A DNA stretch of 64,000 bases from positions 3,847,131 through 3,911,130 of the forward strand of contig CM026424.1 in the NCBI GenBank assembly GCA_014871385.1, in the 5' to 3' direction. Of the stretch, positions 11,470 through 45,450 are shown in pieces. A model generated the notes under the pieces. It ran no database searches, was not told where the DNA came from, and saw only the letters and a list, made by a program, of their open reading frames with translations. Each line of letters opens with the position of its first letter. Within the stretch, counting starts at the first letter, position 1. The position numbers were made by a program, and so were the translations under genes. Source of the DNA: Ceratodon purpureus (taxonomy: Eukaryota; Streptophyta; Bryopsida; Pseudoditrichales; Ditrichaceae).

Positions 11470-11683
11470 TAAATGGTAGTACTGAAAAGGTAATATTAAA
11501 ACAGTATTGCAACAGGACTGACAAGAGTATTGTCGCAGAATTATAATGTCAATTCCCTGCGACAGTATTGCAACAATACGAACGCATATACTGTCGAGTT
11601 TCCTGATGCACAACATCTAATATACTGTAGAACAAAGACACTTTGTTCCTAATAAGTCGTGTTTGCCGCACTTCACCACTTTG

Positions 11684-11876
11684 TTGATGATTTTGAGTAA
11701 ATTCAAGCACTTTCTTTCATTTCAAATTTTAGAGGACTGTTCCGAACAGGACCTTATGACAATTGCAAACAGAAAGACAGTGTGTGGTTCCTAAGCATAA
11801 AATCAAAACCTATCATCAGACATGCCGTCGACATCTGTGCAAAGAACTCGCCCAAGACTTCGTCTATCTCAAATGC
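11684..11876 (+). repeat. 193-bp dispersed repeat, copy 1 (inverted partner at 32316-32508)
   Basis: From TGATGATTTTGAGTAAATTC to CGTCTATCTCAAATGC this segment matches the reverse complement of 32316-32508 at roughly 85 percent by eye, including CAATTGCAAACAGAAAGACA and AGAACTCGCCCAA. The same reading frame has stops at the same place in both copies, so it looks like a repeat, not a coding exon. No terminal repeats found. Confidence 0.85.
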
Positions 11877-12210
11877 TTCCTCTATCTCGAATCCAGAGTT
11901 TTCAATATAGGTACCAATTAGTTACAAATTTGAAACTTAACTGTGTTTCAACCATCTTATATTGCATAATCTTATTTCTTTTTCTACTCATTTATCCAAT
12001 TACTTGACATTCTAAATTCATCATATTGTTAATGCCAATAAATGAAGAAAAGCCAAATCTTTGTCATGTCACGTTGTTTATGCTTGTGATTCTACAATAT
12101 AAAAAAATTAATATTTTCTTGAACAATTATTTGTCACGATTTCAAACCTTCAATTAGAAGGGTATTTTCTAATTTAATGAAACATGCTTACAAAATTTAC
12201 TTTGAGGCAT

Positions 12211-28650: not shown

Positions 28651-31600
28651 ATGGCGCTAGCGGGAGGGTGTGTGGGGGTGGCGATGGTTGCGTCCGCGGG
28701 GCAGTCGCGGCTGCAGGAGGGGCTGGTGTCGCAATTCGTGGCGCGCACAACGTGTTCGCCGTCTCTGTCGTTGGGGAGCCATTTCCCGTCGCAGTTCTGT
28801 GGTTCCTACTCGAAGGGTGCTCGGATGGTGAATTCTTCCACGCAGCGGTTTGTGGTGCCGCGTGCTGCAGCTGCCTCCGCCACGATGGCCGAGAGCATGA
28901 CTAAAATCGCCGACACGTTTGCTGCGCTCAAGGAACAAGGCAAGGTGCGTTTTTCCTTTTGAGATGCGCAGTTGATGACTCTCAACCCTGAATCCCAAAT
29001 TTTGAATTGAAGGGGCAAGGCGAGAAAATACTGGAATTTTAGGAGAGCCATTTTGTATAATTCCTTCTTCAATTTGAAGAGTCAATTCCGTATGAAGTAG
29101 CTGATTCTGATTCTTAGAAATGAGAAATTTAGTGGCGCTCTAGTCATGGTTCGAGTAATCTGTTGATTTGTCTCGGCTGCAATGTGATATCCTTGGTTCA
29201 GTATGGCATTAATCACTGGTGGGATAGAGCTGTACATGGCATTTTGAGAGTTAACGTCATCTTGCATGTGCTGAATGACTTGGTTAACGGTGTTTATCAG
29301 GTCGCTCTCATTCCATACCTTACTGCCGGCGACCCCGACTTGGATACAACGGCAGAGGCAATGCGTCTACTAGATGCATGTGGAGCCGACATTATTGAGC
29401 TTGGAGTTCCCTACTCGGATCCTCTTGCCGATGGTCCTGTCATTCAGGCGCGTTCATTGTTCCCAGTGCTTCAATCTCGGCATTTGTCAGGGTTTGAGTT
29501 CAGAGCTGTTAAGTAGAAAAGGATTTGCACTTCATACAGATTGATTTAGTACCGCAGAGTAATCAACTTACTAAATCTCTGGTTGCTTCTCACAGGCTGC
29601 TGCGACAAGGTCACTTGCGAAAGGCACTACCCTTGATAAAGTTCTGTCTATGTTGAAGGAGGTAAAGTTGCTTTCTTGCTTGCAGTTGAGAATGCGGTAC
29701 AGTAGTAGCTGGTTCAATGCTGTATCGGTTTTGTGTACGTGCAACAGTGATCTTGGCAGCTGTTGTCTTGAGTCCTGCAGAGTTCGTACTTTAGAATGTG
29801 TCCTTCGGACATATTGGATAGCTGTGTGAGTAAAATCTTAAAGGTACTCGGTTTTCCAGGTGTCGCCAAGCTTAAGGGCTCCGGTTGTGCTATTCACATA
29901 TTACAACCCTATTTTGAAGCGAGGAATGGAGCCCTTTCTTAAGGCTATCAAAGAGGCTGGAGGCTCTGGTATCGTTTTCTAACTGAATCATTTGCATTAG
30001 CATCCTGTTCGAAAGCACACAGTTCTTCAACAGAGGATAACGTGATTGAGCAGAAGAGTTGTATGTGCTGCTTGGAGCCGATTTAAGTCTTCCAGGATAG
30101 CTAGTGCTATCTTAGTACAAGGTTGAGAATGGTTGTAGAATTTTAGGGTGGTTATATTTCAATGCAGCTCAAATTTCTACGTTTAATAGCAGGGCAATCA
30201 GAGCAGTGCGGCTGCATTCTATAGACAACTACTAGCAAGGTTAGTTGTCTGGTTATTCTGTCCTCTCAACTCCTCTACATAATCTGCAATACGTGCAGGC
30301 CTGGTAGTGCCAGATGTTCCTCTTGAAGAGACAGACAAACTCCGGGAGCGGACAACTGCAAATGGCCTTGAATTGGTGAGTTGAATGTCTTTCATCTTCG
30401 GTACTGTAGAGGCTTAGGTTACCATACTGGGTTTCACTACCATACCAAAAGAATCAGTGACGAGTATAAGGAGCTTTGCCAATTATATGACCCGTGTGTT
30501 TTCTTCCAGATCCTGTTGACGACTCCTACTACTCCTAAATCTCGGATGGATACAATTGCCAAGGCTTCGCAAGGGTTTGTCTATTTGGTGAGATCTGGTC
30601 TTTGAACTGATCGTGCCTGATGCTTATGTAGTTTTATTCTGCCTAAGGCGTATTCTTAGCATTTCTTGTTTTTAAAGGAAATGCGGAATTAGATTCAGTA
30701 AAATCATGTTCGGTTATTTAAGATACATTCAGATAGTGTCCCTTTATTTTTGATGAGGTCCGCTTTGATTCTTGTATAAACGGTGAACACTACGGGGTTC
30801 CAGTTGATTTGCTCTCAAGTTCCATTCTGCCAATTCTTAGTTCTGAATAGACTTTTAGGGTTATCCATATCATATTTTGATATTATGTACTTAGAGAAGT
30901 TTTGATGAATATTTGCAGGTAAGTCTCACTGGAGTTACAGGAGCTCGTACTTCAGTTCAGAGCCGCGTGCAAGGTCTTTTGAAAGAGTTGAAGGAGGTGA
31001 CTCTCTTTCCTTTTCGTTCTCAGACTGTTTGTAGACTACGATGTGTAAGGCTTAGAGCTCATAGATTTGTTCCTTCATGTGTTAGATTGGTTCTGGTGTT
31101 TAGCCGTCCTCGATCATTATGTTAGCATTTTGCGCTTCACTATATTCTTCTGTTGGTTCAGAGCGTTTTTTGCGGCGAATTTTATACATTTTCGAGCTAT
31201 CAATCATAGTCGCTTTAGGAAGTCCAAGGCAATCTATCATCTATACACACTAATAGCTACAGGTGACTACAGGTGACTGACAAACCAATAGCTGTTGGTT
31301 TTGGAATTTCACTTCCTGAACATGCTGCCCAGGTATGTACTATTGGCTTTTTATTGTCAATTACAAGGTCAAAATAGTGATGTTAAAAGGTCTTCTTGCT
31401 TTCGTCACCCCTATTCGGTTCATGTGATGCTCAGGTCCAGGACTATTATTGATGGGCTCATCTACTGCCTATTTTTTAATTGGAGGAATAGACATTGCCG
31501 ATCTCAAGCCCAAAGTTTCTATATGTCCAATATTACATAGTTTCTTCCTGCTGAAGCTTGTGTTTGCATTAAATCACTTGCGATCGTTACAGGTGGTAGA

Positions 31601-31727
31601 GTGGGGAGCCGATGGAGTGATAGTAGGCAGTGCCATTGTTAAGATTCTGGGAGAGGCTGCAAGTCCTAAGGAGGGTCTCGCTGCTCTTGAAAAGTTCACG
31701 AATGATTTGAAAAACGCCCTTCCTTGA
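28651..31727 (+). CDS. TSA1: Tryptophan synthase alpha subunit, chloroplast-targeted, 347 aa
   Basis: Nine exons: 28651-28944, 29301-29447, 29596-29661, 29860-29968, 30299-30375, 30510-30587, 30919-30996, 31273-31332, 31593-31727. The first 75 residues are rich in Ala, Ser and Arg with few acids, a typical plastid transit peptide. The TIM-barrel enzyme follows: [17 protein letters not shown], then [19 protein letters not shown] with the catalytic Glu131 and Asp142 (Glu49 and Asp60 in E. coli), [37 protein letters not shown] and IAVGFGIS. It cleaves indole-3-glycerol phosphate to indole and glyceraldehyde 3-phosphate and passes indole to the beta subunit. Intron 2 appears to begin GC instead of GT, after a CAG codon. 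Exon 7 starts GTAAGT. A 5' leader intron (28410-28640) is likely. The free indole-forming homologue (IGL/BX1) cannot be fully excluded, but a transit peptide and a single copy favour TSA. Confidence 0.93.
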
Positions 31728-32315
31728 GGTAATCTTGTAATCCAGTATGATGCTTTGATGTATACATATTACGTGAGCTGGAATGATTCAATATTAATTT
31801 GTCTTTTGTGATTGAACCACATGTTTTTTTTCTTGTTGTGCAGTGGTATACGTATGGTAAATATTTTCTCATAATTTGGTGGATAGGCACCTCGTCCTTC
31901 ACGCCAACAATGAAGGAAAGGCGAGTACATGCTTGATGATAGAGGCTGCCCTGTTGTTTTGCTCATCGTAGTAAAATGACCACCTCTTTGTTAGTACTAG
32001 TTTTGTCATTCTGCCAAGGAATATTTCAACAAACTCATGTTTCTAGTTAGTTTTATAGAGACTTGGTAACATGATGAGAGGAAATATCATAAAGCCTATC
32101 ATGTGGGTGACGTTGACACTTAGCATTTTTGTAGGCAGGGAATATTAGTTTTAAGGTTACAAATTTAATCGACTCATTTTTAGTTGAACTAACTCAGTTG
32201 ATTTGTTCTGCTCACATTTGAAAGTATTTCCACACACGTCGATCTTGTACCCTTGCATGTACATTCTTCAGCAACTGGCAGTCTTGTTGTTTAAACTATG
32301 AGTAGACAATCTAGA
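31728..32315. other. Tryptophan synthase 3' flank
   Basis: Likely 3' untranslated region and spacer. No gene recognised. Confidence 0.5.
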
Positions 32316-32508
32316 GCATTTGAGATAGACGGAGTGTTGGGCGAGTTCTCTGCAGAGATGTCGACAGCATATCTGACGATAGGTTTCGGTTTTATGCTCT
32401 GGAACCACACACTGTCTTTCTGTTTGCAATTGTCCTGAGGTCCCGTTTGGAACAGTTCTCTAAACTTTGAAATGAAAGAAAGTGCTTGAATTTACTCAAA
32501 ATAATCAA
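32316..32508 (-). repeat. 193-bp dispersed repeat, copy 2 (inverted relative to 11684-11876)
   Basis: Reads as the reverse complement of 11684-11876: GCATTTGAGATAGACGGAG at the left, and AAGAAAGTGCTTGAATTTAC near the right end. This copy sits in gene-rich DNA 0.5 kb upstream of the first B3 gene; the other sits in the transposon island. Confidence 0.85.
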
Positions 32509-32527
32509 TAAAGTTATCTGATATGAC

Positions 32528-32562
32528 ACTTCCAGCTCTCAATGATCATTGAGAGATTGAGC
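32528..32562. repeat. Nested palindrome upstream of the first B3 gene
   Basis: CTCTCAATGA and TCATTGAGAG form a perfect 20-bp palindrome at 32536-32555. Around it, ACTTCCAGCTC at 32528 is mirrored by GAGCTGGGAAGT at 32568-32579, with an intervening GAGCGATT. It is about 0.45 kb upstream of the B3 start codon. Confidence 0.8.
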
Positions 32563-33025
32563 GATTTGAGCTGGGAAGTTATCATGATTATATCTAAAAC
32601 TTTCGAGTTTGTCTAGGTACTAAAACTTACGTTGTCTTGATTATCTCATAATTTTGACACCTCTCTGGAGTACTAAGTACTTATTATTCTTGCTGCTGTA
32701 CGTCCAAATCGAACTACATTTATGGGCTTAATCTGTCCTCGTCGGCTTTCCAACACATCAACTTGAATCTACCAAATTCAATCTTCTAAAAATCTACCTC
32801 GCCACTTCTAAAATCTTGCTCCAGAAGAAGCGTCACTCACCTGAGAAAATTGCACTTTCGCTTCCCAAGTCATCCTGGAGCCCGAGTCACTTATGTATTC
32901 AACACCGCCATGGATACTTGAACGATTCTTAGTGTTCGAGGAGTGGTGATATCCGAGTCTGGTTGATTTTTGTTCGAATGCGGCAGCGCATTGATCAACG
33001 CTCTGGAAGCTGCAGTGCTTCAGAA

Positions 33026-34486
33026 ATGGTGCCAGGACAAGGCGATGCATCTGCGAGGCGACGTAGTTGCGGGAAGGCGACATGGATATCTGGGGACATG
33101 ATCAGAGTTCTTGCTGACTTGCAGGACTCCGGCATGATTTATTTCCAAGGGTCGCTCGCACGGTCAGAAGGCCACAACGATCACAAGTTTGGCACAGATG
33201 TGGAGTTGGTATGTTACTGTAGGATGTTTCTAGGAATCTGGTACGTGTGTAGTTCTGTTTTCGTCTTGATCCAAATTTGGTGCCACTCATCCGAAAGTGT
33301 GTTCTCACCTTATCCTCGATCTTCGATCTCTTGTAGGCACTGCCCCCTGCTTTCTTACGAGAGCATGGCGACAAGTTTGAAGACTATGTCGTTTTTTGGA
33401 CTCGATCTTCCACAAAACCATGGGTTGTTCAGGTCAGCATTTTTGAAGAGCCTGATGGCGCAGTAGATGTCAAGTTTGCCGATGGATGGGATGAGTTTGC
33501 TGCTGACAATCGCCTCAAGCCAGGCGATTCATTGATTTTCGTTCTGAATGTGCCACAACCCGAGTTTATGGTCTACATCTTTCAAGGAACTGGCATGTCT
33601 TCTCGAGCATCGGCCAGAAACACTGATAATCGCACGAGATTATCAAAGCAGACATGGAGGAGCTTATCTGATGGACACAGAAAAGACCGGCAGAAGAACG
33701 GCAGAAAGACAGGGGGTCTGTTGATTGGAAAGAAGGCAGTTCAAGAGGTAACTAACTCTGCCCATCATGCCCTCCATCTCTCTAAACTGAGCAACAAATC
33801 TTCTTTCATTTCCTTTTCAAGTCCAAGTTTACTCGTTGGACTGTAGAATCTTTGAACTTTTCGCAATGATTCACAAGTTCATCTTTCGTCTTACAGTGCT
33901 TGCAAAGTGCAGACTCGGCAGCGAAACCTTGGAGCTAGTTTCGTCGACAAAGAATATAAGACAAACTTCTTTCCTCACTTCGAGAAACGAATCACGGCTA
34001 CTGACTTGAAACAGCATTCTATTGTAAGCTTAATTCTGTCCGTTTCGAATACTGTCTTGATCTCAATGTTGCACAGAGACGAGCTAGGTTGCAGATGGTA
34101 TGACAGAAAAATTCGAGCCCTAGCAGGCCACGTCAACATACTCAAGATTCACTAATTCCATTGTTTGAAACGCCTGCATTGATGACAGTCTCGTTTATAT
34201 GTCGATGTTTATGGAGTGGATTTGGATTCTGCAGGAAGTTCCTGCTAGCTTTGTCAGGTCACATGGCAAGAAGTTGAATCCAGCTGAAGTCAAAGTCCAA
34301 GGAATCCACCACGAGTCTCCGGTTCGAACTGGAAGACTCTGTTGGGACGAGCAGTTTGAGGCTGCGACGAGGGTCTTTTTGCGGGCTGGGTGGAGCAATT
34401 TTATGATGGAGAATAGACTACACAAGGGGCAAGAGCTTCGCTTCCCAATGACTGCTGCTTCGTTCTTTATTGTTCGAGAAGTTTGA
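33026..34486 (+). CDS. Double B3-domain protein 1, 318 aa
   Basis: Exons 33026-33208, 33337-33747, 33913-34023, 34235-34486, all joined at phase 0. The start is the Met of MVPG, matching MAPG in the other four genes; in-frame Mets upstream (from 32963) are less likely. Residues 1-61 form the shared N-terminal module (W.SGD...VL.DLQ.SG.IYF). The first B3 domain follows (FLREHGDKFEDYVVFWTRSS, FADGWDEFAADNRL, GDSLIFVL, VYIFQGT), then a basic linker, a short exon 3, and a second B3 domain (EVPASFVRSHGKKL, VFLRAGWSNFMMENRL, GQELRF). B3 domains bind DNA; in REM-type plant proteins several copies are usual, so a nuclear DNA-binding role is inferred. Its exon 3 is 75 nt shorter than the matching exon in gene 3 with frame kept. 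Most diverged first B3 of the five. Confidence 0.87.
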
Positions 34487-35554
34487 GCAAACTGTGCCCT
34501 CTCACAAGAGTTAGAACTACGTCAGATTTTTGAATTTCACCGTATGCTGTAAATATGCCATGGTGGTAAGAAGACTAAAGAACGCTCTACAAATTTATGG
34601 ACGACCAATACTGTGAGTGATTACACTTGAGTGTCGCAAGTCGATTGAAATTAACAGACTTCTGGTTTTGATTACTAGCGAAACATCCTTTTTGTAAACT
34701 TTCTGGATATATCTCAATTATGGATTGTTTGAGTTCTTATATGATTCGGTTCTTTCAGCATATTACGTATAGTGCTGCATATTTCTGGTTATGATCGGAA
34801 GCAGCTCGTGGAATTTTTTGTATAGATCATCATACTCAAACTGATTGTTATCAAATATGTGATACTTTGAGTATCAACTTTGACTCAATCATCCTCAGCA
34901 CATGTAGAGTGTAGAGTTTATTCAGTACTTGCGGATTTGCTGACCAAGACGACTTTCGGAAATCTCCTGCACTTCCCACAGCTCGAGTAGCGGCAATTTG
35001 ATTACATAGGAGAGAATCGAGATCCTTATGCCACAAGAATTGAACCCAGTTCCTGTTTTAGGTGATACATAAAACTTTTGAGATTCCACATGGAGCTTCA
35101 CATTACAGCAGGATTTTTTTTAAATGAGGTTCTACTTAATGGGAGTTGCCAATCCATACTTCCTCCAGCTCTGTAAATATGAAATTTGACCTGCCCTCGA
35201 AGAGCGTAAAATTCTGGATTCGAACGTTTGAAGGAATTTGACAGAAAGGATTGAAAGAATGACTTGAGATAGCCATCAACAGAATTCGGTGCTGTTCAGA
35301 TATTTGAGTCCTACATTGCTCTGAGCGCTCTAAACTGTAAACAGCGAGGAAAGTTGAAGATTCAAATGGATTATGGACAAAAAACAATTTTGCAGTGTTA
35401 ACAAATGCACGACCAGATAGTACTATATTCATGGCCATCTCCACTCTTCATTGTCCATCATCAGTATCATGCCAATCTAAGCGCCGCCATGCTGATTCGA
35501 ATTTCAATCTCCCAAAGTATATGACACTCATTTCTCATCAACCCTCCAGGACAG
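34487..35554. other. Spacer between B3 genes 1 and 2
   Basis: The first 350 bp match the sequence following gene 3's last exon (40646-40868). No gene recognised in the remainder. Confidence 0.5.
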
Positions 35555-35753
35555 TTTTAATCACTTCACTTAAACTCAAGCTCTCACTTCCGAAATCATG
35601 ACTCGGACAACCATGATATTATCATCAGATTTCATACAATAATACCCCTACTCCCTAAAAACGGAGACTGCCATACATGTTGATCGATTTCCTCTTGTAT
35701 GAAGACATTCAACGCAGCTTCACTTTGACACACCGAGCTCTAGTGATGCGAAG
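35555..35753 (+). promoter_or_regulatory. Shared B3-cluster upstream block, gene 2
   Basis: TTTTAATCACTTCACTT, then CTCACTTCC, AATCATGACT, CATGATATTATCATCAGA, AATACCCCTACTCCCTA and CTTGTATGAAGACATTC lead to the ATG at 35754. The same order of words precedes gene 3 and, less strictly, genes 4 and 5. ATAC-rich words at about 35634-35645 may serve as the TATA region. Confidence 0.6.
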
Positions 35754-37575
35754 ATGGCCCCAGGAGACGGTGATGTGTCGATGGCCAGGGAATTGCATTC
35801 TAAGCCATGGAAAAGTGGGGACCTGAACCAAGTTCTTCAAGGATTAGAGGTTTCTGGGAGCGTTTACTTCCTCAAGACTCTTCGCCGGCCGCAGCCGAAC
35901 CTCAAGTTTGGTCAATGTGATCAGCTGGTATGCTTCCATTACCACTTCTCTATCTGTGTTGCTTCCAGACTTGTTTGATACCTTTGAGCTCTGTTTTTGT
36001 TGTTCCAATGATGATGATTTAGTAGAGTGGTCTGCACTTCGGTGTTTGAGATAGCATTCATCTGTGAGTTGTTCAGAGAAGGTTTAAGCTGCAGCTTGTA
36101 GGCCTTCGGCGCTTGTGACGTTGCGTCGCAATAGATGCTTCGACTTGATGAGAGTAGTACTAATATGTTTTGATTCAGATATTGCCGTTCTGTTTCATGA
36201 AAGAGCATGCTGAAATAATCGAAGAATGGGTCATCTTGCGAACTTTTTCATCCTCAAAACCTTGGAGAGTGAGGGTGCACGTTGACAGAAATTCAAGGGG
36301 ATCAGTCGAAGTTAGATTTGTGGGTGGATGGAGAGAGTTTGCTGCCGAGAATCGCCTCCGCGAAGGTGATTCGTTGATTTTCGTTCTCAAACTGGATGCC
36401 AGATCCGAGTTTGAAGTTTACATCTTTCGAGGAACTAGCGTGTCAGCCGCTAACTCTCAAGTTCCAGCTGGACAGTGGCCCATTTGGGAAAGAATGTCAG
36501 GTTGCAAGGTAGAGAAAGATGCCAAATTCTCAGGTAGATACACCTTGCGTTCAGTTGGTGATGGAAACATGAGAGGAGGAGGAGAAGTGTACACCGGAAA
36601 GAAGAGGAAAGTTGACGAGGTAATTTACTGATCCCATTGTCACTTACATTTCTAAATTGAACTAAACATCGTGTTCCATGAATTATTATTATCAATCTTC
36701 CAAGTCATTACCAGAGATGTACCCATTGATTGTTATATATATCGATTAGATTCTTGGCGCAAGGGCTCTCGAAATCATGTGTTAACTTGCATCATTCGGT
36801 AAAGCCCAACAGGAGGATCATAATATATAGTTGCACAGTCTGACTTCGAATCTGATCATGGCCAGGCACCTAGTTCCTGTTTTGACGATGAACATAGGAG
36901 CGGTCTCGAATCTGAGGCTTTCACAGGCTGTGAGTGCAAGAGATTTTCACCCCAACATGGCACAAATCCTCTTCCTAGCTTTCGCAGGCCAATCAAGTCC
37001 TTTGTCGTCAAAGACGGTCGCTTGGTGAGTTAAACAGCTAGTTCCGACATTTCAAAGCACTGAATATCAATGAGGCTTGCATATCACCTACTTTTCCATA
37101 CATGGTGGCGTTTGCTGGGTTGCAAGTCTCGTGCTTGACAGGTGATTTAACAGGATGATTTATAGCCGTAACAATTTGCAACTAAAGAGCTTACCTCTCT
37201 TATAACAGGCATAAACTTAAGTCAGGACACTATTTCGAATTTTTGAAACTCCAGCAATAACTCCTCTTTTGTGACCGATATTTATGACTTGTGTAATTGA
37301 TTTGTATGCAGGAAATTCCTGCAAGCTTTGTTAGAATGCATGGCATGCGGCTTCAAGATGATGTAAAATTGCAGGGAATTCATCAAGAGTCCCCAGTTTA
37401 TAGTGTGACACTAGGCTCCCGGATAAAGCAGCGTACTAGCAACGAACGGAGGCTCTTTTTCCAAACTGGATGGAAAACGTTTTTGAACGCAAATGGCCTC
37501 CAGGAAGGTCAAGAGCTTAACTTCACGCTCACTGCTGATTCGTTCTTTACCGTTAGAGTTGTTCAAGGAACCTGA
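35754..37575 (+). CDS. Double B3-domain protein 2, 354 aa
   Basis: Exons 35754-35927, 36179-36619, 36839-37024, 37312-37575, all phase 0. Residues 1-58 are the shared N-terminal module (MAPGDGDVSMARELHSKPWK, LQGLEVSGSVYFL). First B3 domain 59 to about 160 (FMKEHAEIIEEW, KPWRVRVHV, FVGGWREFAAENRL, GDSLIFVL, VYIFRGT), then a basic tail GKKRKVDE that looks like a nuclear localisation signal. Exon 3 (206-267) is a linker with a Ser-Phe-Arg-Arg-Pro segment. Second B3 domain 268-354 (EIPASFVRMHGMRL, LFFQTGWKTFLNANGL, GQELNFTL). The frame choice for exon 3 is confirmed by alignment with gene 5 (SEA.TG.E.K....QHGTN..PSF). A DNA-binding regulator is inferred from domains only; subfamily within REM/RAV/ABI3-type B3 proteins is not resolved. 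Confidence 0.87.
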
Positions 37576-38390
37576 AACTCATCAGTCCGAACGACTTCAA
37601 AAGATTTCCTTCCTGAAGGTGGATTCTGAAAACTGATAAGGAAGAATCCAGGTCTTCAATCTCAAGTCCTTCAGACGATCCATTTCGGATGCTTTTTGTG
37701 AACGACCAATCTTGTATGTAATTGAAATGTTGACCTCAATTTCTCACATTCTAGGACTCTTATCCACAACCGTCTCTCTTGAGTTTCAAGACGTGCTCTG
37801 TGCAACATCTTCGATTTTAGATGATACTATTGTCCATTCGTGGATGAAACGTACATCCTATCTTAAATATTGTGTTCTCATGAATTAGGATTTTCCAACA
37901 TTCCAAAAAACAACCAGGAAAGACAGAAGTATGAAGTATGCGTTCCTGGCCTGAACTGGGCTCTCCAGTGCCCATCCCCTCACCTTCAGTGAAGCGAAGT
38001 CGATTCAAGTTCCCTCTTGATCGTAAAATCTACCACCATCACTACCCAGTGTACCATCCAGCACAGCTTCAATTGCCTCACTTACTTTCAAGCACTCATT
38101 CCCGCATTCATGACTTCGGAAAGGTGCACAATTATAGCATGTTGTGAAATACGAGTTATTGAACAGCCTAATAGAATGCCTCAGACCTAGTGCTCTACCC
38201 CCACACCTTCAATAAGCCCATTGCCAAATTATAGACTACGTACTCTATGAGTGTTCGATGATCAATCCTCGGCCTGTATGATGATATTGAACGCAGCTTC
38301 ACATTGGCACTCCGAGCTAAGTATTACAGCAACATCAATGGCCAGTTGTTTGCAAATTTAAAGGCCATGGATAATCATAGTTTTAATCAC
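37576..38390. other. Spacer between B3 genes 2 and 3
   Basis: Its first 280 bp match 41120-41420, the sequence after the relic last exon behind gene 3, showing that genes 2 and 3 were once complete tandem copies. No gene recognised in the rest. Confidence 0.6.
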
Positions 38391-38600
38391 TTCACTTGAG
38401 CTCTCACTTCCAAAATCATGACTCCATCAAGCCATGATATTGTCATCAGACCTATTGATTTCATACTATAATACCCCTACTCCCTAGAAACGGCGGCTGC
38501 CAAAAGATTACATACATGAGGAGTCTTCTTGATCAATCCTCTTGTATGAAGACATTCAACGCAGCTTCACTTTGACACACGGAGCTCTAGTGATGCGAAG
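38391..38600 (+). promoter_or_regulatory. Shared B3-cluster upstream block, gene 3
   Basis: TTTTAATCACTTCACTTGAG, CTCACTTCC, AATCATGACT, CATGATATTGTCATCAGA, ATAATACCCCTACTCCCTAG and CTTGTATGAAGACATTC run up to the ATG at 38601, nearly the same as upstream of gene 2 but with a small insertion (near ACATGAGGAG). Confidence 0.6.
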
Positions 38601-40645
38601 ATGGCCCCAGGAGACGGTGATGTGTCGATGGCCAGGGATTTGCATTCCAAGCCATGGAAAAGTGAGAACCTGAACCAAGTTCTTCAAGGATTAGAGGTTT
38701 CTGGGAGCGTTTATTTCCTCAAGACTCTTCGCCGGCCGCAACCGAACCTCAAGTTTGGTTATTGTAATCAGCTGGTATGCTTCCATTACCACTTCTCTAT
38801 CTGTGTTGCTTCCAGACTTGTGTGATATCTTTGAGCTCTGTTTTTGTCGTTCCATTGATGATAATTGAGTGGAGTGGTCTGCACTTCGGTGTTTGAGATA
38901 GCATTAACCTGTAAGTTGTTCAGAGAAGGTTTAAGCTGCAGCTTGTAGGCCTTCGGCGCTTGTGACGTTGCATCCCAATAGATGCTTCGACTTGATGAGA
39001 GTACTTTGTTTTGATTCAGATATTGCCGATGTGTTTCATAAAAGAGCATGCTGAAAAATTCAGAGAATGGGTCATCTTACGAACTTTTTCATCCTCAAAA
39101 GCTTGGAGAGTGAGGGCCTGCGTTTACAATAAACCAAGTGGATCATTTGAAGTCAGATTTGTGGGTGGATGGAGAGAGTTTGCTGCCGAGAATCGCCTCA
39201 GCGAAGGTGATTCGTTGATTTTCGTTCTTAAACTGGATGCGAGATCCGAGTTTGAAGTTTACATCTTTCGAGGAACTAGCGTGTCAGCCGCTAACTCTCA
39301 AGTTCCAGCTAGACAGTGGTCCATTTGGAAAAGAATGTCAGGTTGCAAGGTAGAGAAAGATGCCAAATTCTCAGGTAGATACACCTTGCGTTCAGTTGGT
39401 GATGGAAACATGAGAGAAGGAGGAGAACTGTACACCGGAAAGAAGAGGAAAGTTGACGAGGTAATTTACCAATCCAATTTTCACTTAGATTTCTTTGAAC
39501 TAAACATCGTTAACTCCAAGAATTATTATTATCAATCTTCCAAGTCATTAGCAGAGATGTACCCATTGATTGTTATATAAATCGGTTAGATTCTTGCAAG
39601 GGCTTTCGAAATCATGTGTTAACTTGCATCATTCGGTAAAGCCCAACAGGAGGATAGTTGCACTGACTTCGAATCTGATCATGGCCAGGCACCTAGGAGC
39701 GGTGTAGAATCTGAGGTTTTTACAGGCAGTGAGTGCAAGGGTTTTGCATCCCGACATCGCGCAAATTCTCTGCCAAGCTTCTGCAAGCCAATCAAGTCCT
39801 GCGACGGTCGCTTGGTGAGTTAAATTCTTTCGAACATTTCAAAGCACTGAACTATGACTATCATATTAACGAGGCTCGCAAATCATTTACTTTTCCTTTG
39901 AATCATGTCCAAGTTTACTCGTTGGACTGTAGAATGTTTGAGCTTTTCCAATGATTCACAAGTTCATCTTTCGTCTTACAGTGCTTGCAAAGTGCAGACT
40001 CGGCAGCAAAACCTTGGAGCTAGTTTCGTCGATGAAGAATATGATGGACAAAATGTGGTTGGTAGTTCCTCTGAGGATGACAAATGCAGTGAGCCCAACG
40101 AGTTAGCATTCCAACATGGCGCAAACTTCTTTCCTCACTTCGAGAAACGGATCACGGCTACTGACTTGAAACATCATGCTATTGTAAGCTTAATTCTGTC
40201 CGTTTCGAATACTGTCTTGATCTCAATGTTACACAAAGATTAGTTAGGTTGCAGATGGTATGACAGAAAATTCGAGTCCTAGCAGGCAACGTCAACATAC
40301 TCAAGAGTCACTAATTCCATTGTTTGAAACGCCAGCATTGACGACAATCTCGTTTATATGTCGATGTTTATCTAGTGGATTTGGATTCTGCAGGAAGTTC
40401 CTGCTAGCTTTGTCAAGACGCATGGCATGAAGCTAAATCAAGCTGAAGTTAAAGTCCAAGGAATCCACCACGAGTCACCGGTTCGAATTGTAAGACTTTC
40501 TTGGAAAGAGCAGTTTGAGGCTGCGACGAGGCTCTTTTTGCGGGCTGGGTGGAGCAATTTTATGAAGGAGAATGGCCTACACAAGGGGCAAGAGCTTCGC
40601 TTCACACTGACTGCTGCTTCGTTCTTTGTTGTTCGAGAAGTTTGA
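38601..40645 (+). CDS. Double B3-domain protein 3 (chimeric paralogue), 350 aa
   Basis: Exons 38601-38774, 39020-39460, 39998-40183, 40394-40645, all phase 0. Exons 1-2 and the introns around them are near-identical to gene 2 (MAPGDGDVSMARDLHSKPWK; FVGGWREFAAENRL; GKKRKVDE). Exons 3-4 and their introns are instead near-identical to gene 1 (ACTCGGCAGCAAAACC; EVPASFVKTHGMKLNQAE; FLRAGWSNFMKENGL). The switch falls in the intron near 39895-39905. A gene-2-type exon 3 survives unspliced-looking inside this intron (39665-39814), and the gene-2-type last exon lies decayed at 40870-41118. The encoded protein is complete: N-module 1-58, B3 59-160, linker, B3 268-350. If the extra exon were spliced in, the protein would be 400 aa. 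Role inferred as for the other B3 genes. Confidence 0.85.
39665..39814 (+). pseudogene. Relic (or alternative) exon 3 inside B3 gene 3
   Basis: Fifty open codons (DFESDHGQAPRSGVESEVFT and onward to the donor CGCTTG then GTGAGT) matching exon 3 of gene 2 with a 30-bp in-frame deletion. The acceptor has changed: gene 2 reads GCACAG then TCTGAC, here GCACTGAC, so the AG is lost. With no acceptor it is probably skipped, but the open frame and good donor leave room for use from another acceptor. Confidence 0.7.
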
Positions 40646-40869
40646 GCAGACTGTGCCCTATACGAGTTGGAACTACGCCATCAGATTTTTGAATTTCACT
40701 GTATGCTGTAAATATGCCATGGTGGTAGGAAGACTAAAGAACGCGCTACAAATTTATGGACAACCAATACGGCTTCGAGGGAAATTATCGGACTTCTAGT
40801 TTTACTTAGCATAACATCGTTTTGATAAACTTTCTGGATGCATTTTGGGTTGGTTGAATCCTTATGTTA

Positions 40870-41118
40870 GAAGTTCCTGCAAGCTATGTGAGAACGCATG
40901 GCATGCGGCTGCAAGCTGATGTACGAGAGCAGGGAAATCATCAAGAGCCCCCAGTTCAAAGTGTGGCACTCTCCTGGAATATTGAGCGGCGTTGAAACGA
41001 GACAATCCACCATTTCCAAGCTGGGTGGCGAATTTAGTTTTAGGCTAATGGCATCCAGGAAGGTCAGGCGCTTAAGTTAACGCTCACTGCTGATTCGTTC
41101 TTCAGGGAACCAGTAACT
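40870..41118 (+). pseudogene. Decayed gene-2-type last B3 exon
   Basis: EVPASYVRTHGMRLQADV can be read from 40868 (TAG acceptor then AAGTTCCTGC), matching gene 2's exon 4. The frame soon meets a stop after NIERR and others later, and the C-terminal words (GQALKLTLTADSFF) are partly kept. The sequence after it matches the 3' flank of gene 2 for about 300 bp. This is the displaced original last exon of gene 3. Confidence 0.85.
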
Positions 41119-41454
41119 CAGTTCACTAATGACTTCTTAAGTTTTCCTTTCTTCAGGCGGCTTCTGAAATCTGATAAGGAAGAAGCCAGGTCTTGAGTCC
41201 CAAGTCCTTCAGACGATCCATGTCGGATGCTTTTAGTGAACGATCAAACTTGTGTGTTATTGAACTGTCAATCTTAATTTTTCACGTTCTAGGACTCTTA
41301 TCCACAACCGTTTCCCTTGAGATGGTTCAAGACGTGCTGTGTGCAACATCTTCGATTTTATATGAAACTAGTGTCCATTCGTGGATGAATCGGAAATCCT
41401 ATCTAAAATATAGATCTAAATGTGGGAATATTTGGCTTCGCAATAGTAGATTCT

Positions 41455-41508
41455 GAGCTTCAGTTCACTCTCATTTCTTATTCATTCTTTGCCGTCAGAG
41501 TTGTTTGA
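41455..41508 (+). pseudogene. Tail end of a lost B3 gene
   Basis: Eighteen codons, ELQFTLISYSFFAVRVV plus stop, match the C-terminus of gene 4 (ELQFTLIADSFFAVREY). The following 320 bp match the 3' flank of gene 4 (for example CAAAATTTTACCCTTC and GTTTGAACC.TGC.ATGGTGC). Everything upstream of these codons is missing, so at least one further B3 gene was largely deleted here. Confidence 0.75.
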
Positions 41509-41829
41509 GGAACCAGTTATAATTTAGTCCCAACGAGTTCAAAATTTTACCCTTCAGTGGCTTCTGATATCAGGCCTGAAGGAAGACGTATTCGGCACCA
41601 ACTCTTGCAGATTGCAACCAAGATGTTTTGTGGAAAACCAACCTTCAAGTATAAATTATGAAAATCTCATTCATGTTCTAGACCTCGTGTCTACGATTGT
41701 TGCCATTGCAAATGTTGAGTTTCAAGAAGCTCTATGAGCAACATCGTCACTTCAAACTCAAATTATGTACATAACTGTTTTGAACCATGCAATGGTGCTT
41801 GTGATGTCGACAAATTGATCTTTAGAGCT

Positions 41830-42406
41830 TTAAGTCGTAAAGTTAGGCCTTTAAGCTTTGCACATCTTTGCTCAATGGGTTCTGTCTGCAATTTATTAGA
41901 ATAATTGTTCTACAGAACACACTCAAAGTGGCTACTTTTGATTGGATTCAATGCAGCACACAGCTTATTTCTAGCAATGCATTGCAGAATGAATCGACCA
42001 ATTTGAGTATAGGACGCACCTAATATGCCTGATTAAACATCTATTGTATAAATCCCAAAAAAACACTCTCAAATTGATGATACATACCAAGGATTGACAA
42101 ATCATTTCAAATTGGGTGCAGTGCTAACCAAGTGACAGAAACTGGAAAAAAGCACTCGATTTTAGAAAAGTATGGCTAGGCTGTAAAGAGTTAACCATCG
42201 ATTCAATTGGTACTGGAGGCCCACTGTTGTTCCAAGCATGGAAAGGAATTTACCCAAGTTTGCTACTCAGTCTCTCTTACATCGCATCTCCATCAGTGAG
42301 TGATCCTGACTAAAATTTCCCAGGAAATACAAAATCATGAGTGACTTGGAAATGTTGCAAGTGGAACACAGTCCTAATCTGTAATAGTACTGAAATCATG
42401 GGCACC
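41830..42406. other. Spacer upstream of B3 gene 4
   Basis: No gene or element recognised. Confidence 0.5.
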
Positions 42407-42700
42407 AATCACCTCACTTTAATTCACTCTCACTTCCCTAATTATAATGACTTGATCACTTTAATTCACTCTCACTTCCCTAATAATGACTTGAGCATAC
42501 TACACCATCATCCCAAATAGCATCATACCAGCCTTTGGGACTCTAGCCTTTGTCCCTGATCCTCATACCTACAATTTGCCCTCCCCTCCCTAGAAACACA
42601 CATTGCTTACATATTTTCTCTCGGAGTCTTCAGTCATACAATCTCTTGTATGGTTACATTGAACGCAGCTTTGCATTAACAGAGCTTAAGTGTTGCAGTA
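42407..42700 (+). promoter_or_regulatory. Shared B3-cluster upstream block, gene 4
   Basis: CAATCACCTCACTTTAATTC, CTCACTTCC, TAATGACTTGA and, nearer the start, CTCCCTAGAAAC, CTTGTATGG and TTGAACGCAGC keep the order seen before genes 2 and 3. The distal box is doubled here (42415-42456 and 42457-42495). Confidence 0.55.
42415..42495 (+). repeat. Tandem duplication of the distal promoter box, about 42 bp
   Basis: CACTTTAATTCACTCTCACT and the next 20 bases occur twice in a row, the second copy lacking three bases. The duplicated unit contains the box conserved upstream of the other B3 genes. Confidence 0.9.
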
Positions 42701-44560
42701 ATGGCACCAGGAAACGGTGATGCATCAGCGGCAAGCTATTTGCAGAAGTTATGGAAAGCTGGGGATCTCAGCAAAGTGCTTCTGTGTTTACAAGCTTCTA
42801 AGAGCATTCATTTTCACAAGGAACTAAAATTCTATCAAGGCGTGCAGCTGGTATGCTCCTGATGCCAATTATTAGCCTAGGTTGTGTTTAGATCAGTTTG
42901 ATAAGCGTGCCTTGGTTTTTTAGTCTTACATTCACTGTAGAGCTGAGTGGAATGGTGCTCACTTGAGCATTTGGAGTTGCTGTATCGCATGAGTCTAGAA
43001 GTTATGCGGTACTTTTAGAAGTATTTGTTAATATGCAGGTTTGTGGGCCTTAGCTTGGAAACATCATGTGGTATGCAATGTCTCAAGGCTTGATAAGTAA
43101 TTTGTTTTCTCTCAGTCACTGCCGGTGTGGTTCATTAAAGAGCATGCTTACGATTTCGAAGAATGGGCCATTCTTCGAACTCCGTCATCTTCGAAACCTT
43201 GGAGAGTGCGGGTTGGAGCTTACAGGACGACACCGGGTGGAAGTCCTCAAGTCAGATTTGTTGGTGGATGGAAACAATTTTCTACGGAGAATCGCCTCAA
43301 ACGAGGTGATTCGTTGGTTTTTGTTCTCAACGTGGATGCAAGATCCCAGTTTCAAGTGTACATCTTTCGAGGAACAGGAACAGGAAGGACAGCGGACCGT
43401 GATTGCCGAACTCCAGATACAAATGAATCAGACAACAACAATGGAGCAAGAATTTCTGGAGGGATAGAGATAGGCGTTCATGCTAGAAGACACAACTTGC
43501 GTTCGGCTGGTGATGGAATCACGAGGAAAACAGGGGATCGGCTTGTCGGAAAGAAGAAGAAAGTTGAAGAGGGAATCAACGTACTGATCCAGTTTTTGCT
43601 CACATTTCTTTGAACTGTATATATGTACAATCTCCTCAGTGCTGTACTAATCAATCTTCCCTTATGAACTGCAAGTCCAGGAGTACCTATCGAAGTAAAA
43701 ATTAGGAAGGTCACAGTTGCAAGGATCGGAACCTCAAATTATGTGTAAATGTCTTAGTAAGTGGTGTCGTTTGGAATGCGCAGCAAAACTTCGGAGATCG
43801 TTTGCCTGGCTTAAAATCCAGTGATTATTTTTCCCGAGAACCTAGTCCTGGCTATCGCGGTATAGAGAAGCAAGGTGCAGCATCTGAGGTTGTCACAGGC
43901 AGTCGGTGGAAGGGTTTTGCACCCAAGCATGGAGAAAAATTACTTCCAGGCCCGTTTCCAAGCTTCCGCAAACGATTAATAGCCCATACGAACAAGCGCT
44001 TGCACCATCTCATGGTGGGTTCAGTTCTACCCCTTCCAAACCTTGAATTATGCCATGACCTGTAAATCACCTTATTTTCGTATAATTCATACCTGATGAA
44101 CTTCGGATCTTGCAGCTGAAAAGAATTTCTTAGTTCTAACATACTACGTGATCACGGTGCACAAATTCTGAGAGAAGATGATTTGCAACCGAAAAATCCT
44201 TGAAATGCTTACTTCGTTGGCAGGCCTTCACTCAAGACTCAATGGTTCCAAATTTTGTTGGTTGGATTATCTTTGATGTGGATCTAAGTTTGGAACATCA
44301 TGCAGGAAGTTCCCGCAAGCTTTGTGAAGATGCATGGCATGCCTCAGCAGCTTCAAGATGATGTTATTCTGCAGGGTATTCATCAAGACTCCCCTGTTCG
44401 AATTGTGACATGCCATTGGCAAAGGCAGGATGCAAAGACGTTGAGGCTGTATTTCAAGGCCGGGTGGCCTGAATTTGCGGAGGAGAATGGCTTGAAGGTC
44501 GGTCAGGAGCTTCAGTTCACGCTCATTGCTGACTCTTTCTTTGCCGTCAGAGAATATTGA
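42701..44560 (+). CDS. Double B3-domain protein 4, 366 aa
   Basis: Exons 42701-42850, 43116-43580, 43784-44014, 44306-44560, phase 0 throughout. N-module 1-50 is the shortest (MAPGNGDASAASYLQKLWKA). First B3 from 51 (FIKEHAYDFEEW, KPWRVRVGAY, FVGGWKQFSTENRL, GDSLVFVL, VYIFRGT). The exon 2 donor used by the others is gone (GAAGAG then GGAATC), and the next usable donor adds three codons (GIN) before GTACTG. Exon 3 encodes a 77-residue linker with a PSFRKRL basic patch. Second B3 283-366 (EVPASFVKMHGM, LYFKAGWPEFAEENGL, GQELQF). Inferred nuclear DNA-binding protein. Confidence 0.85.
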
Positions 44561-45450
44561 GACACGAGCAACTGAGTCCGACCAACTTCAAAATTTTACC
44601 CTTCGGTGGCTTCTAATTAAACCAGGCCAGAAGGAAGAACTGACTCTTAAATTGATACTAAGTCTTTCAGACTATGTGACTTAGATGATTTTGTAGAGGA
44701 CCAGTTGTTTGTGTAAGTGAAAACCTAATTTGTTCTTCACATTCTACGGCAGTTGTAAATGTTGCGTTTCAAGATTCAGCTTCGTGTGCAACTTCTTCAC
44801 TTCCAAGTTGAAATTTAACATAACAGTCTGGTTTGAACCGTGCGATGGTGCTTGTATAGCATTAATATGTAATATTTCTCTCGTGCTTTAAGTTGGTATT
44901 CGTTTCAGGTTTCCACATGAATCTTTGTATGTAATCCAATGTTCAGCAATTGATGATTAGTTGTATCATATGACATACTCAAAGGGCCTACTTACAATTC
45001 AATTCAGTTCAACACAAATTTACGCTACAATTGGGAATTGTCTTCTTGACCGGCGGTGTTGGTTTTTATATCTGCAAACGATAGCAACGATCCACAGCGT
45101 TTGCAACGTCGTGTAAATGACGATAGATTATCCTTTGATTGTCATTTCAATTCGTGAAAGGCACTGGATTAGATTTGCCTGTTAGTAAATTTCATCTCCA
45201 TTGAAAGGTGGTGATGACAATGACCAGGAAAATATCAAATATTATGATACATGTTGGATCATGGATTGTGGCCCATACTTATGATAATGACCATTTTAAA
45301 TAATGCGAACCCATGACACAGTACTGAAATCATGGGCCGCCTTCTCGGCTCTCCAATGCCCATCATCACCACCTCCACTTTAGTCTAGCTATGTTGATTC
45401 AGAAAGTACTCTCGTAAAATCAATTGCCTCACTTGTCATCAAACAGCTTC
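44561..45450. other. Spacer between B3 genes 4 and 5
   Basis: To about 44900 it matches 41509-41830. No gene recognised beyond. Confidence 0.5.

Follow-up and report, generated by a model that had tools for sequence, protein, structure and literature searches.

The locus described here raises the question of how the third gene of a tandem cluster came to resemble one neighbour in its first part and another neighbour in its second, and whether gene 1 was the donor, gene 2 the recipient and gene 3 the product of a single event, as the first-pass annotation had proposed. The window, that is, the whole stretch of 64,000 nucleotides that was analysed, corresponds to C4:3847131-3911130 of Ceratodon purpureus, in an assembly of 362.5 Mb and 151 contigs whose contig C6 measures 110.5 Mb. 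The available part of the published description gives a genome size of 360 Mb and U and V sex chromosomes that both exceed 100 Mb (PMC8000587). The genes of the cluster encode B3 DNA-binding domain proteins, and the two neighbours of gene 3 that are needed for the comparison are the following (coordinates given here and below without a contig name are window positions).

33026-34486, plus strand: gene 1, of the gene-1 type (blastn; B3 domain matches).
35754-37575, plus strand: gene 2, of the undisturbed gene-2 type with intron 3 complete (blastn; frame reading; B3 domain matches).

A genome-wide scan with PF02362, in which 150 of 726 candidates were scored, listed at least 150 matches, and B3 domains are therefore numerous in this genome. 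At least 19 of the matches listed are clustered at C2:19.02-19.89 Mb, 18 of these 19 being without internal stops. Gene 3 scored 79.9 bits and a related gene on contig C7, described below, 64.8 bits (curated cut-off 30.1), each with two B3 stretches. The two-B3 genes of this locus are presumably of the REM type, a label taken from their two-B3 architecture. Tandem duplications and multi-B3 proteins, as found in this cluster, are features of the REM-type families in the available part of the survey by Romanel et al. 2009 (PMC2688026), whereas the terms "gene conversion" and "chimer" have no occurrence in its main text, unlike the case presented here. Just upstream of gene 1, a stretch of 200 bases (32315-32514) is repeated in inverted orientation 20 kb away (11678-11877) with 90.5% identity; this is likely a dispersed repeat.

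The comparison of window positions 30001-45000 with the window itself by blastn showed that gene 3 is composed of successive segments of two types, and uniform identity to one paralogue was seen neither in these segments nor in the window identities. Positions 38379-39896 matched gene 2 at 35553-37097 (86.1% over 1588 columns, bit score 1898); 39879-40052 and 40122-40839 matched gene 1 at 33795-33965 (90.3%, bit score 230) and 33962-34708 (87.5%, bit score 934); and 40870-41411 matched the last exon and 3' flank of gene 2 at 37312-37870 (78.5%, bit score 474). These four matches are far beyond chance. The alignments gave a sharp switch of type at both edges of the insert, and the resumed gene-2 match begins at base 1 of the last exon of gene 2. 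Gene 1 exons 3-4 are the nearest match to the insert among the matches listed. The segments of gene 3 are as follows.

38379-38600, plus strand: 5' flank of gene 3, gene-2-like (blastn; K80 0.082 to gene 2 and 0.186 to the C7 copy).
38601-38774, plus strand: predicted exon 1, gene-2 type (frame open, phase 0; open in the C7 copy too).
39020-39460, plus strand: predicted exon 2, gene-2 type, first B3 domain (PF02362 match spanning residues 54-143 of the predicted protein, 350 aa long).
39653-39814, plus strand: gene-2-type exon 3 upstream of the switch, a putative exon (frame open in gene 3 and the C7 copy).
39897-39902, plus strand: left junction, from gene-2-type intron 3 to gene-1-type intron 2 (alignment; same place in the C7 copy).
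39998-40183, plus strand: predicted gene-1-type exon 3, linker (gene 3-C7 dN/dS 0.70, 0.30-1.52).
40394-40645, plus strand: predicted gene-1-type exon 4, second B3 domain and terminal stop (gene 3-C7: no indels, dN/dS 0.32).
40868-40870, plus strand: right junction, where the gene-1-type 3' flank gives way to the start of gene-2-type exon 4 (alignment; same place in the C7 copy).
40870-41118, plus strand: leftover gene-2-type exon 4, decayed (3 in-frame stops, 16-base deletion, acceptor of gene 2 gone).
41119-41438, plus strand: resumed gene-2-type 3' flank (blastn; K80 0.174 to the C7 copy and 0.213 to gene 2).

The switches fall where the first-pass annotation had put them, near 39895-39905 and at about 40868, and its description of a roughly 1-kb 3' gene piece lying in an intron, with an open chimeric frame and the old last exon and its 3' flank stranded behind it, agrees with the ~0.97 kb of gene-1-type sequence found in a gene-2-type intron. 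Its assignment of exons 1-2 to gene 2 and of exons 3-4 to gene 1 holds for the matches themselves and has to be amended in one respect, since the gene-2-like part still includes a gene-2-type exon 3, which places the switch in gene-2-type intron 3. In both gene 3 and the C7 copy, the frame set by exon 2 stays open through this exon. The acceptor that gene 2 uses for it is absent from both, and substitute AG dinucleotides upstream, read by eye, would preserve the frame. B3 exons are present in the gene-2-type as well as in the gene-1-type part of the mosaic, and the predicted product may consist of exons 1 and 2, gene-2-type exon 3 and gene-1-type exons 3 and 4, or of the same series with gene-2-type exon 3 skipped. 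Without gene-2-type exon 3 the predicted chimeric protein of gene 3 has 350 aa and that of C7 has 331 aa, the composite frames being open. By family, such a protein would be a DNA-binding regulator with two B3 domains.

A search of the genome with positions 38601-41118 (2518 bases) returned at least 53 matches. Among those listed, near-full coverage of the query was given only by gene 3 itself and by C7:6394912-6397408 on the minus strand (80%, query 1-2502). When read with its flanks (C7:6394560-6397618, minus strand), this copy aligned with 38378-41438 in a single block, 79.8% identical over 3205 columns, and showed the same succession of gene-2, gene-1 and gene-2 type with both switches placed as in gene 3. 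It is very unlikely that the two junctions would have arisen independently in the two copies, and since C7 carries both at the same places, the mosaic is older than the C4/C7 duplication. The arrangement is thus not confined to the window. The outer flanks of the C7 copy match gene 2 from 35430 and over 37946-38051 (90.6%), whereas the gene-2 matches of gene 3 itself stop short of these limits. Broader colinearity of C7 with the window was absent across 200 kb of C7 in blastn (best 17 of 28 matches, all above 90 bits); the matches outside the B3 block were scattered, with one C7 place hit by two window places, and copying between C4 and C7 with the neighbours preserved was rejected because these matches contain no run of common neighbours. 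At C7:6399434-6399785, on the upstream side of the C7 chimera and ~2 kb from it, lies an extra copy of the gene 2/gene 3 5' flank, which is followed by no matching gene body.

The polarity of the change was deduced from intron 3, which is complete in gene 2 and in repeats on contigs C13, C12 and C10; the uninterrupted gene is accordingly ancestral and the mosaic derived. The gene-2-type piece of these repeats matches gene 2 continuously over 36456-37545, spanning the stretch that is absent from the chimera. The repeats (C13:13657500, C12:1097500 and C10:10218500) are 99.5-99.6% identical over 6.3-6.5 kb, and contain a gene-2-type B3 piece from the end of exon 2 to exon 4 together with a match to window positions 41754-42074. 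Judged from their sequence, they look like a mobile element or a recent dispersed duplicate that has captured parts of a B3 gene. Pieces of gene-1-type exon 4 with its 3' flank recur on contig C6, where at least 8 of the places listed begin at query base 1828-1838. Around their exon 4 pieces, C6:98311518 and C6:57520518 have ~965 columns in common (83.7%), which indicates that the piece rides in a repeat there.

The reading that we regard as probable is that gene 3 is an old chimera which was copied between C4 and C7, kept its frame in both places and was later overprinted on C4, its exon use being predicted. In the ancestor, ~0.97 kb of gene-1-type sequence (the end of intron 2, exon 3, intron 3, exon 4 and 3' flank) would have entered intron 3 of a gene-2-type gene, displacing ~0.2 kb of the recipient intron and with it the acceptor that had served the old last exon. 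The resulting gene would have taken its promoter, first B3 domain and linker from the gene-2 type and a second linker and second B3 domain from the gene-1 type, and the old last exon, severed from splicing, would have decayed downstream of the new stop. The chimera would then have come to stand on both C4 and C7 with its frame retained in each, and later exchange in the C4 cluster would have brought gene 3 and gene 1 closer together over the insert; over the 5' part the same probably happened between gene 3 and gene 2. Splicing and the DNA mechanism are those that we infer, the latter being either copying during the repair of a break whose ends matched poorly, or a pair of deletions in a larger array. 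Conversion tracts average 200-500 bp in yeast and rodent cells, according to the accessible part of the source (PMC3924818), and plain conversion is a poor fit for the founding join because the two types are scarcely alignable there and the tract measures ~0.97 kb.

The second of these mechanisms does away with tract copying altogether: a longer tandem array, ordered type 2 - type 1 - type 2, would yield the same succession after two deletions. The two types are tandem neighbours in this cluster, the order of the pieces is consistent with such an origin, and both junctions have short matches only, such as TTTCC and ATTC when read by eye. Two independent deletions and the loss of a third gene would be required, however, and as the sequence fits this account and a templated insertion alike, the deletions are considered possible and on the whole rather unlikely.

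The retention of the frame assumed in the preferred reading was examined in the gene 3-C7 comparison, in which it has to be set against the idea that both chimeric copies are pseudogenes whose open frames have survived by chance. Each of the 9 indels located in predicted exons has a length that is a multiple of three, as against 5 of 23 elsewhere (Fisher p = 7e-5), where "elsewhere" comprises introns, flanks and the leftover exon, 3 indels at the alignment ends have been dropped, and 3 of the 9 exon indels (27, 3 and 3 bases) fall in gene-2-type exon 3, itself a putative exon. The dN/dS ratio was 0.58 for the composite (bootstrap 0.38-0.88), 0.81 for exons 1 and 2 (0.43-1.74), 0.83 for gene-2-type exon 3 (0.29-4.35, an interval too wide to inform), and 0.32 for gene-1-type exon 4 (bootstrap 0.15-0.71). 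The near-neutral ratio of exons 1-2 is what pseudogenes would give, whereas the indel pattern and the value for exon 4 are against them. So is the state of the adjoining leftover exon, which in gene 3 has 3 stops in the frame of gene 2 and lacks 16 bases that gene 2 and C7 possess, and in C7 has a frame shift; by alignment, the acceptor sequence of gene 2 upstream of it has been replaced, an unrelated AG standing at its place by chance in gene 3 and no AG in C7. This dead exon also gave a dN/dS of 0.70 between gene 3 and C7, from few sites (36 differences), for which reason dN/dS alone was rejected as proof of function. The evidence from the frame for a maintained chimera is thus good and that from substitutions modest, the ratios not being cleanly apart from the dead-exon control. 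Three observations count against the preferred reading, namely that the two copies of gene-2-type exon 3 require different substitute acceptors (by eye), that C7 is without the 19 bases immediately upstream of the acceptor region of exon 3, and that broader colinearity with the window was lacking in the 200 kb of C7 compared. On balance, that both copies are pseudogenes appears improbable.

The kinship of the copies differs from segment to segment. The sites at which two of three sequences agree were counted in the 5' segment (A; gene 3 with gene 2 88, gene 3 with C7 59, gene 2 with C7 50), in the insert (B; gene 3 with gene 1 100, gene 3 with C7 43, gene 1 with C7 28) and in the leftover segment (C; gene 3 with C7 60, gene 3 with gene 2 40, gene 2 with C7 39); the chi-square p values of 0.003 for A against C and of 6e-6 for B against C are weakened by the non-independence of sites within one tract. 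In quartets, the inserted exon 4 grouped gene 3 with gene 1 and C7 with the C6 copy (19:1:1 and 20:2:0 for two C6 outgroup copies, bootstrap 100), and the leftover exon grouped gene 3 with C7 and gene 2 with C13 (16:0:2 sites, bootstrap 100). The tract tree thus conflicts with the flank tree, as expected of conversion between genes 1 and 3, and the closeness of these two in the insert is ascribed to later transfer or conversion because the grouping excludes C7. On these comparisons, later exchange between gene 1 and gene 3 within the insert, in either direction, is part of the proposed history.

These same data bear on the simplest history, that of a recent single event in which a newly made duplicate of gene 2 in this array received the tract from gene 1. 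It would explain why the C7 copy is less close to gene 3 than gene 2 is in the 5' part, and less close than gene 1 is in the insert. Against it stand the two junctions common to C7, the history of the leftover exon that the quartet assigns to gene 3 and C7 in common, and the distance between gene 3 and gene 2, which is larger in the leftover segment (K80 0.233) than in the 5' part (0.083). Were a later transfer from gene 3 to C7 added, gene 3 and C7 would have to be closest in every segment, which was not seen. A recent event, and with it the view of the three genes as donor, recipient and product of one visible step, is therefore held to be very improbable. An assembly artefact near 39.9 kb has a negligible probability, no supporting sign having been found, and a join of that kind is ruled out by the identical joins in an independent, ~20%-diverged copy on another contig.

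Within the old-chimera reading, homogenisation of the 5' part of gene 3 with gene 2 is probable to judge from the sites, but less well supported than the exchange in the insert. In the 5' interior, which was chosen after the windows had been viewed, the three-way sites stood at 77 to 36 for exchange between the two genes. The outgroup quartet with the C13 repeat, applied to the right part of the segment, gave 8:6:2 (bootstrap 60), the left part being without an outgroup, and the gap patterns (gene 3 with C7 13, gene 3 with gene 2 10, gene 2 with C7 5) lean against homogenisation there. By a division made post hoc, gene 3 is C7-like near the junctions and in the leftover and neighbour-like elsewhere (103:68 against 60:160); the p value of 1e-10 for this split of interior and junction-proximal sites is descriptive only, because the split was chosen after the window identities had been viewed and the sites are non-independent. 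The dS between gene 3 and C7 rose from 0.115 in exons 1-2 to 0.362 in the gene-1-type exons, and their divergence was only 0.05 in intron 1 and 0.17 in the 3' flank of the leftover. This uneven dS is unaccounted for by the old-chimera explanation and counts against it. The 5' parts of all three gene-2-type copies are unusually similar, which could result from constraint or from exchange extending to C7.

The later exchange may also have run in the reverse direction, with the old chimera as the source: gene 1 would then have had its 3' half overwritten by the insert, and gene 2 perhaps its 5' part by that of the chimera; we entertain this tentatively, as a conceivable course rather than the expected one. 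Had an older donor lineage overwritten gene 3, a K80 of 0.21-0.23 would be expected, the level that separates gene 2 from both gene 3 and C7. The gene 3-C7 values for noncoding sequence within the insert (0.08 in the left intron, 0.15 in intron 3 and 0.22 in the 3' flank) are mostly nearer to the 0.17 of the leftover's 3' flank, in line with the reverse direction, although the numbers are too small to be decisive.

A chimeric gene duplicate is defined, in the accessible part of Katju 2012 (PMC3449122), as a paralogue assembled from at least two donor sequences of which at least one is genic. Gene 3 resembles the duplicates treated there in being a new exon combination with an open frame; it differs from them, as far as that part goes, in that both of its donor types are paralogues from one cluster, the exon that was displaced still exists, and a separately decaying copy is found on a second chromosome. 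Interlocus gene conversion, as presented in the available portion of PMC3924818, produces one-way tracts between linked paralogues and would suit the exchange that later took place in the insert, and perhaps that in the 5' part. No published account of the gene 3 chimera was found in titles and abstract openings of the literature searched, outside of which most subscription papers lie. The type of event, a chimeric paralogue with later exchange, is already known, and the documentation of this case is unusually good.

Chimeric genes have often been inferred from a single locus with faded traces of the donor. Here one genome holds the undisturbed recipient type, a gene of the donor type, the product together with the exon that it displaced, and another copy of this product that evolves on its own, and because all these pieces coexist, the formation of the chimera, the preservation of its frame, the decay of the exon and the later exchange become separable and testable. 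The case also teaches caution, as the closest neighbour of a tract is not necessarily its original donor. If the reverse direction were true, gene 3 would serve as a hub for redistributing B3 domains in the cluster, with the sister copy on C7 keeping the older state.
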